NCBI RefSeq assembly: GCF_010686725.1
Contig: NZ_JAAGWZ010000001.1
Coordinates: forward strand, 682,001 to 746,000
Length of the DNA: 64,000 nt
Source of the DNA: Galbitalea soli
GTDB taxonomy: Bacteria > Actinomycetota > Actinomycetes > Actinomycetales > Microbacteriaceae
Direction of reading: 5' to 3'
The translations under genes were made by a program, and so were the position numbers. Below the pieces are notes generated by a model. The model was not told the origin of the DNA, ran no database searches, and saw only the letters and a program-made list of their open reading frames with translations. Each line of letters opens with the position of its first letter. Within the stretch, counting starts at the first letter, position 1. Below, one piece after another: positions 16,772 through 20,145 of the stretch.

Positions 16772-17587
16772 TCAGCCGAGGAGAAGTCTGACGACGATCA
16801 CAGCAACCGAGGCCCAGACGGCCAGGCAGACCCCGACGAAGGCGAGCGACGCCCAGAGCAGGCGACGCCGCGTGGCGATGGTGACCTCGGAGCGGAACTC
16901 CGCGAAGTCGCGGTGGAGTTGCTCGGTGTCCTGCGTCGCCACCGAGGGCGTGCGCCACGAACTGGGACGATCGGCCACGTCGGAGACCGAGGCGACCTGC
17001 TCCCCGGAGAGCACCCGGTCGGCCTTGAGAAGCCAGCGCACCAGTTGACGCGAGGTGAGCACGGTGACGCCGTCCGGCTGCTCGCGCACCTGGAACTTCG
17101 TGGGATTCACCATCACGAGCACGGGGTGAACCTCCACGGGATGACCGGCCGCGGCGCTGAGCAGCGCGGCCGCGCTCCTCGCCTCGGCACGAGCCGTGTC
17201 GATGTGCTCCTCCCGCACGCCGGCCACCGTCATGGTGTTGCCGCCGACCCACACCTCCTCACCCGGGTGATTCTTGGTGAGGATGGTGAACACGCCCGCT
17301 GGACCGATGACGAGGTGATCGATCTCGTAGCCCTCATCCGGGCGGGCCCCGTAGGCGGGAACGGCGTGCAGCACGTCCCACTCGGGTCCGAGGTGATCGA
17401 GGGCGTCGCCGACGAGCAACTCGCCGAGGGCGCCGCGGTACCGCACCCGATTCTCACCACTGATGGGAGATCGTCCGAATAGGCGCTGCACTCGTGTGCG
17501 CGGTGTCGCCTGTCGCTGAGTCGAGACGAAGTCGCTCATGACCGATTGACCGGGAACGCGGGCGCGCAGTGCGTGTCCGTCCGACAT
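16772..17587 (-). CDS. NERD domain protein with C-terminal membrane anchor
   Basis: A 271-residue protein. Residues 45-165 hold a nuclease-related NERD domain: RYRGALGELLVGDALDHL, then EIDHLVIGPAGVFTILTKNH, with the conserved Glu, Asp and a Lys typical of this restriction-endonuclease-like fold. A hydrophobic segment (about 245-270) at the extreme C-terminus anchors it to the membrane. NERD proteins are often linked to DNA processing, but their activity is mostly untested. The ATG at 17587 follows GAGGGAAGAG. A terminator 31 bp upstream isolates it from helR. Confidence 0.85.
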   Translation of the reverse strand: MSDGHALRARVPGQSVMSDFVSTQRQATPRTRVQRLFGRSPISGENRVRYRGALGELLVGDALDHLGPEWDVLHAVPAYGARPDEGYEIDHLVIGPAGVFTILTKNHPGEEVWVGGNTMTVAGVREEHIDTARAEARSAAALLSAAAGHPVEVHPVLVMVNPTKFQVREQPDGVTVLTSRQLVRWLLKADRVLSGEQVASVSDVADRPSSWRTPSVATQDTEQLHRDFAEFRSEVTIATRRRLLWASLAFVGVCLAVWASVAVIVVRLLLG

Positions 17588-17617
17588 CTCTTCCCTCGCG
17601 TGCGTCTCGGGCTGGGC

Positions 17618-17653
17618 AAAAAGATGAGGGCCGGCGCCCCCGCACCGGCCCTC
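17618..17653 (-). terminator. Strong minus-strand terminator upstream of the NERD gene
   Basis: A 9-bp perfect stem (GAGGGCCGG/CCGGCCCTC) with a 10-nt loop is followed on the minus strand by ATCTTTTTG. It would end a transcript coming from the helR side. Confidence 0.85.
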
Positions 17654-17894
17654 GTTAGCGATCTATCGCTATCTGCTAGGTCCTCCCCCAAGGACTTCGT
17701 AGTAACAGTGTGCGGGAGCCCGCAGAACCGTGCTACCCCCAGAGATGGGCAAACCCTTTCGGGGGCATCCCCGCCGCTGACACTGCGCGTGGGGGCTTGC
17801 GTCACGGGCCGACCGGGTGGATGCTGTTTCCAGACCAACTCGTCGCCCGGGAGACTTGCAGGCACTGCCGCAGCACCGGGCGATGAGTTTTTCC
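17654..17894. ncRNA. Candidate structured RNA (strand unresolved)
   Basis: The 314 bases between the NERD and helR genes contain no convincing reading frame but are dense in stems: TAGCGAT/ATCGCTA (17656-17671), GTCCT/AGGAC with a C-rich loop (17680-17695), TGCGGG/CCCGCA inside a longer imperfect stem (17702-17735), CCCCC/GGGGG (17736-17765) and a 14-bp stem (17837-17889). Both ends carry a terminator-like T5 tract, one on each strand, so direction is uncertain. I tested by eye against SRP, RNase P, tmRNA, 6C and common riboswitch cores and found no match. It could equally be a 3' UTR structure of helR. Confidence 0.4.
17837..17894 (+). terminator. Long hairpin with T5 tract downstream of helR
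   Basis: AACTCGTCGCCCGG pairs with CCGGGCGATGAGTT (14 bp, one G-U on the plus strand) and is followed by TTTTTCC on the plus strand. On the minus strand the same stem has an A-C mismatch and no T-tract, so plus-strand termination fits better. Confidence 0.5.
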
Positions 17895-17901
17895 TCCCCC
17901 G

Positions 17902-20145
17902 TCAACCGGCCAGCGGTTCCCTGCTGCTTTCCGCGTCGAGCGCCAGCGCTCGAGTGCCGACGATCCGCAGTCGCTGGGTCGGGCGGGTCATCGCGACGTA
18001 CAGGGCTCCGACGCCGCGGGTGGACGATTCCAGGATGTCGTGAGGATTGACGACGACGACCGCGTCGAACTCGAGTCCCTTGGCCTCCTGCGGGGTGAGG
18101 ACGGCGATGGGCAGGCTCAGTCCGCGGGCGCCCCGCCCCACGGTCGCCCCGAATCGTTCCCGCAGGGCCAGGTACTGCGCCTGGACGAGCGACGGGGGCG
18201 CGATCACCGCGAGGGTGCCGCGTGAGTCGAGCTCCCTGTCCTCGTCGACGACGTCGATGACGGCATCGCCGAGCTCATCCGGGGCGACGACGAACTGCTC
18301 CACCGGCCACTCGCTCGCGCGCACGGCCCTCGAGCGCGAGACGTGCAGGCCGTGCCCGATCGCCACCTCCTCGGCCGCCTGGGTGATCTGGGACGGCGTG
18401 CGGTAGTTGACGGTCAGCTCCTCCAGCCGGAACGCGTCGGTGAGCGAACGGAGCGCTTCCGTCCAGTTGGGCGCCGCGGCGGCCGCGCTCGCTTGGGCGA
18501 CGTCGCCGACGATCGTGAAGGAGCGCAGGGGGCAGCGCCTGCGGAGAAGTCGCCACTGCATCGGCGACAGCTCCTGCGCCTCGTCCACGACCACGTGGCC
18601 GTAGCTCCAGTTGCGGTCGGCCGCGGCGCGTTCCGCCGTCGTGCCCCGCGCCGCCGTCTCGCCGAATCCCGCGGCGAGTTCCTCCGCGTCGACGAGACCC
18701 TCGACACCCATGTTGCGGATGGCCGCCTCGGCGTTCTCGACATCGCGCTTGAACTGCCGCTTGCGCTCGCGACGCTCCGTGTCGTTCGCCTGATCGAACT
18801 CCCCCAGCAGCTCGGCCGCCTCGTCGAGGAGGGGGATATCCGACACGGTGAACGGCTGATCCCGATCGCGTCGCAGCAGCGCCCGCTCGGCCGGCGACCA
18901 GCGGGGCGTCAACGAGGCGAACCACTGCGGGCGGGCGAAGAGGTCCTGGATGAACTTCTCGGGCGTCAGCGGCATCCAGGCAGTATTCAGCGCGACCCGC
19001 ACGTCGTACGACGCACGCAGATCCTCCAGCAACCAGCCCATATCCGAATCGTCGATCGTGTTGCCGTGCGATCGCAGCTGGTCGGCCAGGGTGGCGGCGA
19101 GCGCGCGCAGGACCGCCTTCTGGAACTGCTGCCGCGCGATGTTGTGCGGCTTGCGCGTGCGCTGGGCCGCCGCCATCGCCGTGGCCACGACGTGCGGTTC
19201 CAGGGTGAGCTTCTCCCCGTTCACGTCCATCACCTGCGGCTCGGCGGGCACCCGCTGGCGTGACTTCACCCCGCGCGCGATGAGCTCCGCCATGCGCGCG
19301 TGGCCCTTGAGCGCGGCGACCTCGGGTGCATCTTCGAGGGTGGTGTCGACCCCCGGGTACAGCTGGCCGACGCTCGAGAGCACAACTCCCGTCTCGCCGA
19401 GCGAGGGGAGCACGGCCTCGATGTACTGCAGGAACGACGGGGAGGGGCCGACGATCAGGACCCCTGAGGAGCGAAGCCGCTCGCGGTGCGAGTACAGCAG
19501 GTAGGCGGCGCGATGAAGCGCCACCGCTGTCTTGCCCGTTCCCGGCCCGCCCTGCACCACGAGCACCCCCGCGAGGTCGGAGCGGATGATCCGGTCCTGT
19601 TCGCCCTGGATGGTAGCGACGATGTCGGTCATGCGCCCGGTGCGCTCGGCGGTCAGGGCGGCGAGGAGCGCCCCCTCCCCCTGCAGCTCGGTCGTGTCGC
19701 CGTCGAGGAGGGCGCGGTCGAAGACCTCGTCCTCGATCCGGATGACCTCACGCCCCTGGCTCGTCAGGTGCCGACGCGCGCGCGTCCCCAGCGGCGTCAC
19801 CGCGGTGGCGCGATAGAACGCGCTGGCCTGCGGAACGCGCCAGTCCAGCAGGATCGACTGCTGATCGGCGTCGCGGAGTCCGATTCGACCGATGTAGCGC
19901 TTCGCGCCGTCGTCGAGTTCGATGCGGCCGAAGGCGAGCCGTTCATCCACCTCGCCCAGTTGGGCGATCCGATCCTCGTACAGGCGGGCGAAGGCGTCGC
20001 GCTCGGTTCGCGCCTGATGGGTGCCGCCCGCGCTGCCCCGCTGCACGGCCTCGAGCTGGGCGCGGGTCTCGTCGCGCAGAGCGTCCAGGCGCGCGTACAG
20101 TGTCGAAACGTAGTCGCGCTCACGCGCGAGTTCAGGCGAAACCAC
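17902..20145 (-). CDS. helR: HelR/HelD-like superfamily 1 helicase, RNA polymerase-associated ATPase
   Basis: A 747-residue UvrD-like motor protein. The Walker A motif GGPGTGKT is at residues 199-206, motif II is VVVDEAQELSPMQW, and the C-terminal motif VAMTRPTQRL is motif VI-like. The N-terminal helical arm (ERDYVSTLYARLDALRDE) and the DWRVPQASAFYRATAVTP segment are characteristic of actinobacterial HelR/HelD. These insert into RNA polymerase, recycle stalled enzyme and can give rifampicin tolerance. No obvious rifamycin-associated element lies upstream. It starts at GTG 20145 and is divergent from an MFS exporter gene. The symbol rests on family resemblance only. Confidence 0.87.
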   Translation of the reverse strand: MVSPELARERDYVSTLYARLDALRDETRAQLEAVQRGSAGGTHQARTERDAFARLYEDRIAQLGEVDERLAFGRIELDDGAKRYIGRIGLRDADQQSILLDWRVPQASAFYRATAVTPLGTRARRHLTSQGREVIRIEDEVFDRALLDGDTTELQGEGALLAALTAERTGRMTDIVATIQGEQDRIIRSDLAGVLVVQGGPGTGKTAVALHRAAYLLYSHRERLRSSGVLIVGPSPSFLQYIEAVLPSLGETGVVLSSVGQLYPGVDTTLEDAPEVAALKGHARMAELIARGVKSRQRVPAEPQVMDVNGEKLTLEPHVVATAMAAAQRTRKPHNIARQQFQKAVLRALAATLADQLRSHGNTIDDSDMGWLLEDLRASYDVRVALNTAWMPLTPEKFIQDLFARPQWFASLTPRWSPAERALLRRDRDQPFTVSDIPLLDEAAELLGEFDQANDTERRERKRQFKRDVENAEAAIRNMGVEGLVDAEELAAGFGETAARGTTAERAAADRNWSYGHVVVDEAQELSPMQWRLLRRRCPLRSFTIVGDVAQASAAAAAPNWTEALRSLTDAFRLEELTVNYRTPSQITQAAEEVAIGHGLHVSRSRAVRASEWPVEQFVVAPDELGDAVIDVVDEDRELDSRGTLAVIAPPSLVQAQYLALRERFGATVGRGARGLSLPIAVLTPQEAKGLEFDAVVVVNPHDILESSTRGVGALYVAMTRPTQRLRIVGTRALALDAESSREPLAG

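Follow-up and report, generated by a model that had tools for sequence, protein, structure and literature searches.

The gap between a NERD-domain gene and a HelR-like helicase gene of Galbitalea soli raises the question of whether its dense secondary structure belongs to a single RNA, and whether that RNA serves either neighbour or stands alone. In the window, i.e., the whole 64,000-nt stretch of DNA analysed, this gap extends from the NERD start (17587, minus strand) to the helR stop (17902, minus strand). A sequence-only reading had treated it as one unassigned structured region, and had offered a stand-alone small RNA, a leader of the NERD gene and a helR 3′ UTR as explanations.

Layout and folding of the gap

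The hairpins described in that reading were present. Folding of the plus strand (17612-17900) gave -142 kcal/mol (z = -4.65), a stability equalled by 0/200 shuffles, and the minus strand of the same interval was less marked (z = -2.74), bearing out the dense structure of a gene-free gap. Long open reading frames spanning the gap were not believed, since homologous gaps vary in both length and sequence. The earlier placing of a terminator at each end held as well: on the minus strand a 12-bp stem (17653-17626) is followed by TTTTT, with the U-tract being weak in some members of the genus (G004 and G005), and the plus-strand structure ends with TTTTT at 17888-17892. The latter was missed by our terminator scan because the scan accepts loops of 3-8 nt only, whereas the 13-bp plus-strand stem encloses about 25 nt.

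A DNA search in 79 relatives split the region, with about 17814-17894 being kept in many genera and about 17620-17780 being found in the same genus alone. Judged from these sequence comparisons, the 280-nt region is two independent elements, one family-wide (17797-17892) and one restricted to the genus (17626-17775); a single 280-nt RNA was ruled out by the family-wide occurrence of the 3′ hairpin and the genus-only occurrence of the remainder. The features are as follows:

16772-17587, minus strand: NERD-domain gene (Pfam PF08378, E 3e-12), downstream of the genus-specific block
17626-17653, minus strand: hairpin A, terminator-like, genus-specific; with TTTTT after the stem in G. soli and a C5 run in its plus-strand loop
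17679-17697, either strand: hairpin B, genus-specific, GTCCT-CCCCCA-AGGAC with outer pairs; in 6/6 genomes of the genus, with one covarying C-G/U-A pair
17733-17766, either strand: hairpin C, genus-specific, CTACCCCCAGAG...TGGG....CCC...GGGGG; pattern matches in the genus
17797-17802 and 17820-17825, plus strand: predicted small RNA promoter, -35 TTGCGT and -10 GATGCT with a 17-nt spacer, from the sequence and the motif in homologous loci
17832-17892, plus strand: predicted small RNA of about 61 nt, its start placed 7 nt past the -10 and its end at the U-run
17838-17888, plus strand: hairpin with an outer 13-bp stem (17838-17850/17876-17888)
17888-17892, plus strand: U-run, predicted intrinsic terminator of the hairpin, from the sequence and the T-rich tail in homologues
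17902-20145, minus strand: HelR-like helicase gene of the UvrD type, in convergent orientation to the small RNA and a neighbour only

The earlier failure to match the region to common RNA classes agreed with the Rfam scans. No family reached the gathering threshold anywhere in the window, with the best sub-threshold matches to the region (E ≤ 10) being noise, and no match at the gathering score was obtained for six homologous loci of the small RNA.

A predicted small RNA gene conserved in Microbacteriaceae

The segment 17797-17892 is predicted to be a compact RNA gene with a transcript of about 61-65 nt, the figure of about 61 nt for the window following from a start (about 17832) deduced from the promoter. 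The hairpin comprises 20 bp and lies 12 nt from the -10; its internal loop is GAGA/CA (NNGA/CA in relatives), and its upper helix carries a bulged pyrimidine, a bulged A and the triloop ACT. Its fold had a z of -5.2, and our covariance model (R1) matched 17830-17894 with 84.3 bits (E 6e-26). From the gene-like conservation, structure and promoter described here, we infer transcription and size, as well as the mechanism proposed below.

R1 was built from a 19-sequence alignment with a 20-bp structure, in which a 13-bp stem is followed by the NNGA/CA internal loop, an interrupted upper helix and a triloop. It matched 204 of 400 Microbacteriaceae genomes, representing 49/85 genera, with E-values down to about 1e-27, and outside the family (order and class) it gave weak, chance-like matches only. 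The non-family matches L091 and L092 and the partial matches L060 and L220 were attributed to chance, as the promoter or the outer stem was missing. A mobile or phage origin was rejected because the phage and plasmid collections gave no match, and a single match in a viral contig lacked the hairpin arms and looked like a chance match. Since half of the genera do not have it, the small RNA is not essential to Microbacteriaceae. It is single-copy in most genomes, the "second copies" seen in many of them being mostly the palindrome itself matched on its other strand. It was also noticed that one locus (L217:1500-1710, genome G114) contains three tandem copies of the 3′ half of the hairpin, of which the first is the best model match, and that in genome G027 two small RNA copies (L018 and L027) are carried by separate contigs, the apical hairpin being shortened (GCACCAAGUGC) and a NERD-like gene lying near one of them.

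Conservation of the stems in relatives was very strong for the small RNA and weaker for the genus-only block. Among 71 distinct homologues, 96.8% of the pair cells could pair and 13 of the 20 pairs showed double changes, with 0/500 shuffles reaching any of the observed values; when the partner was slid along, pairing fell to 30-51%. This alignment (A4) was fitted to the model and leans towards the structure, and a MAFFT alignment not fitted to the model agreed with it (pairing 94.9%, double changes in 9 pairs, 0/500 shuffles). Columns 30-52 were swapped between G-C and C-G (35 vs 31 sequences), and in several genera GC-A-GGC-ANT-GCC-GC was replaced by GG-A-GTC-ANT-GAC-CC. Read on the plus strand, G-U cells outnumbered A-C cells (29 vs 14), and therefore the plus strand is favoured for the RNA.

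The motif TTGNNN-N17/18-NANNNT was found just upstream in 61/61 non-redundant loci (shuffles, mean 3.7; reverse strand, 3), with CACCCT as the commonest -10 and a -10 to stem spacing of 12 nt in 38 of these loci. A T-rich tail follows the hairpin on the same strand in homologues. As expected of a stand-alone small RNA, the element thus has its own promoter at 61/61 loci and, as predicted from the hairpin and T-rich tail, its own terminator.

Independence from the neighbouring genes

The following counts are approximate, as gene calls and orientations came from our own ORF script; the named loci also contain a disproportionate share of Microbacterium. Downstream, the next gene is convergent with the small RNA (minus strand) at about 54 loci and co-directional (plus strand) at about 44, a similar frequency. 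Near neighbours among about 118 loci were a PrsW protease (78), an FKBP isomerase (48) and helR (12, on either side). In other genera they were mainly PrsW, FKBP and YceI, representatives of which were confirmed by Pfam, the other neighbour names being assigned by eye or by similarity to genes of the window. In Microbacterium-type loci the gene order is constant, and relative to PrsW the cassette runs antiparallel in 21 and parallel in 19; in both orientations within the PrsW-FKBP gap, the promoter stays on the RNA's own 5′ side. Between species of Microbacterium (L106, L107 and the other loci), cassette and promoter are flipped together at the same site, and the PrsW/FKBP order is kept. Reading of the sequences revealed PrsW followed directly by FKBP in seven genomes, from several genera, that the model did not match (L223, L225, L229, L231, L233, L234 and L236). 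In G199, an apparent negative, a diverged copy occupies the site where the element would be expected; it carries TTGACA-N17-GATCCT and a same-shaped hairpin (23.4 bits, E 7e-5).

A riboswitch or leader would occupy a fixed site upstream of one kind of gene on the same strand, but the hairpin RNA precedes varied genes on both strands. Because the next gene lies on either strand, the cassette occurs in both orientations and the PrsW-FKBP gap is closed where the RNA is absent, the comparison strongly supports a self-contained RNA gene that is neither a leader nor a helR 3′ UTR, the two orientations of the cassette in one and the same gene gap being natural evidence for an independent unit. We consider an independent small-RNA gene at 17797-17892 very probable. 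The suggestion of a stand-alone small RNA was therefore strongly supported, given the family-wide model, promoter and covariation, but only for the final ~60 nt, read on the plus strand.

For this small RNA part, a helR 3′ UTR did not survive comparison, as helR borders the RNA, on one side or the other, at just 12 of the roughly 118 loci, and 13 of the 31 RNA-positive genomes examined had no HelR match at 1e-60. HelR of at least 60% identity was present in 11/31 RNA-positive and 8/17 RNA-negative genomes, and helR, PrsW and FKBP share a neighbourhood with or without the small RNA (e.g., L224, where the HelR start comes after PrsW). Synteny and co-occurrence thus ruled out both a helR 3′ UTR and a HelR partner. 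The idea of a functional link to a helicase acting on RNA polymerase had come from location, and such a link has no support.

The genus-only block

Hairpins A, B and C were found in 6/6 genomes of the genus with C5 on the plus strand (C4 in one copy of C), and the B-to-C span was 60-61 nt in five exact pattern matches. Covariation in the block (17626-17775) was thin, with 3 pairs having double changes, a number matched by 30/500 shuffles (3/500 on score). No convincing shared promoter was found for the block on either strand in the genus genomes. The block is always upstream of NERD in the six genomes, and helR is not immediately adjacent in three (G001, G002 and G004). The proposal of a NERD leader accordingly divided: it failed for the small RNA hairpin, which in other genera is mostly without NERD, and for the block, which accompanies NERD in 6/6, a structured leader or upstream RNA of NERD is the most likely reading.

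By analogy, the block may alternatively be a plus-strand RNA with C-rich loops in the manner of 6C RNA (RF01066), whose hairpin loops are C-rich; the small hairpin RNA, in contrast, has no C-rich loop. 6C itself was ruled out in the window, as the only match in the genome was elsewhere, at C4:133620 (40.6 bits). That match (L028:1501-1574, G000:C4:133620-133693) is a clear-looking 6C RNA with two CCCCCC loops scoring below the Rfam cut-off of 47. Since a control match in Corynebacterium glutamicum was also below the cut-off, the latter may be strict for this family.

Comparison with known RNAs

An analogy with Ms1 had been drawn. According to PMC9130861 and PMC4191392, Ms1 is about 230-300 nt long, has a HAD-hydrolase neighbour and binds core RNA polymerase. 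Both would be stand-alone structured actinobacterial RNAs with their own promoter, as for RNAs of the Ms1/6S type, and in the genus the small RNA lies near a helicase that acts on RNA polymerase. However, the small RNA is predicted at 61-65 nt, and its neighbours are NERD and the UvrD-type helicase in the window and PrsW/FKBP/YceI elsewhere. It was not matched by the Rfam Ms1 model at the gathering score, which is weak alone because, according to PMC9130861, the model recovers no relatives beyond those close to mycobacteria. 6S RNA has a large central bubble between two long helices, whereas the small RNA has a 4x2-nt internal loop only. An Ms1/6S identity was ruled out on length, neighbours and model match taken together. 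The RNA-polymerase-associated scr0792 of Streptomyces coelicolor, about 85 nt and described in one species in the accessible part of PMC11077062, is likewise small, intergenic and actinobacterial, a likeness by description that is not taken as a family link. We do not claim NNGA/CA as a k-turn, since the opposite strand has CA instead of GA.

Proposed function and alternatives

We put the probability at roughly 60% that 17797-17892 is a self-contained plus-strand small RNA gene whose product most likely binds a protein, with the block being a separate element, most likely a NERD leader or upstream RNA. A primary-sigma-type promoter would start transcription about 5 nt before the 20-bp hairpin, and the hairpin base with the U-run would end it, giving a single hairpin of ~61-65 nt with almost no free single strand. 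The features recognised by a protein partner would be the triloop, the NNGA/CA internal loop and the two bulged residues (a pyrimidine and an A), and the RNA would act as a decoy or cofactor rather than by base-pairing to mRNAs. Almost everything at the 5′ end and apex of the small RNA is paired, and the conserved unpaired letters are those of GA/CA, the triloop and the bulges (Y and A); because these letters lie in the loop, bulges and triloop and no seed is free, protein recognition would suit better than antisense. Bacterial small RNAs that stand alone, with a promoter and a terminator of their own, mostly act as antisense RNAs, and the same gene could in that usual mode encode a trans-acting regulator of mRNAs, for which the partly conserved 5′ tail (CAGANCAA) would be available. 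However, with a 13-bp stem, a 3-nt apical loop and a predicted unpaired 5′ tail of only ~5 nt, no obvious seed would be exposed, and we regard an antisense regulator as rather unlikely; given an independent small RNA, the sequence features favour protein binding over antisense by about three to one.

The near-palindromic sequence, which the model also matches weakly on the reverse strand, and the occurrence of both orientations within one gap would be consistent with a DNA element, such as an inverted-repeat protein-binding or recombination site. A promoter on one side only at 61/61 loci, the asymmetric conserved bulges and internal loop, and the excess of G-U over A-C pairing with a T-rich tail on the same strand speak for RNA instead and make a DNA element improbable. 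An ordinary terminator or insulator, i.e., a promoter-driven hairpin merely ending the transcription of its neighbours, is similarly improbable, if not slightly more so: the GC-rich stem followed by U's resembles intrinsic terminators, and the 3′ end of the next gene is often no more than about 60 nt away, but its own promoter 12 nt upstream, the 25-nt conserved interior with bulges, the covarying upper helix, its conservation in 49 genera independently of neighbouring genes and its facing either way beside the same gene would all be unexpected. That the whole region is one minus-strand unit, either a riboswitch-like NERD leader or a helR 3′ UTR, would fit the minus-strand terminator preceding NERD and the constant company of the A/B/C block and NERD in the genus; we consider it barely credible, as in other genera the 3′ hairpin occurs on the plus strand with its own promoter, without the block and mostly without NERD, helR is not the immediate neighbour in the three genomes noted above, and no convincing conserved minus-strand promoter was found.

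Significance

The Ms1 survey (PMC9130861) and the polymerase RIP-seq study (PMC11077062), as well as the structured-RNA scans (PMC6429828, PMC8632094 and PMC11109978), do not mention Microbacteriaceae in the portions available. The literature searched, which did not extend to supplements, preprints and most subscription papers, held nothing relevant on small RNAs of this family, and an earlier report is possible. It is conceivable, as a long shot, that the hairpin is an abundant regulator binding either RNA polymerase or a general RNA-binding protein as a core machine, and filling an Ms1/6S role in Microbacteriaceae; if so, few known RNAs of this sort would be as small. Its small size, mostly single copy, clean absence (closed gap) and predicted promoter and structure make deletion, pull-down and northern experiments simple. 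The element predicted here would thus be a conserved RNA gene, without an Rfam match, in about half of the genera of Microbacteriaceae, a large family associated with soil and plants that includes Microbacterium.
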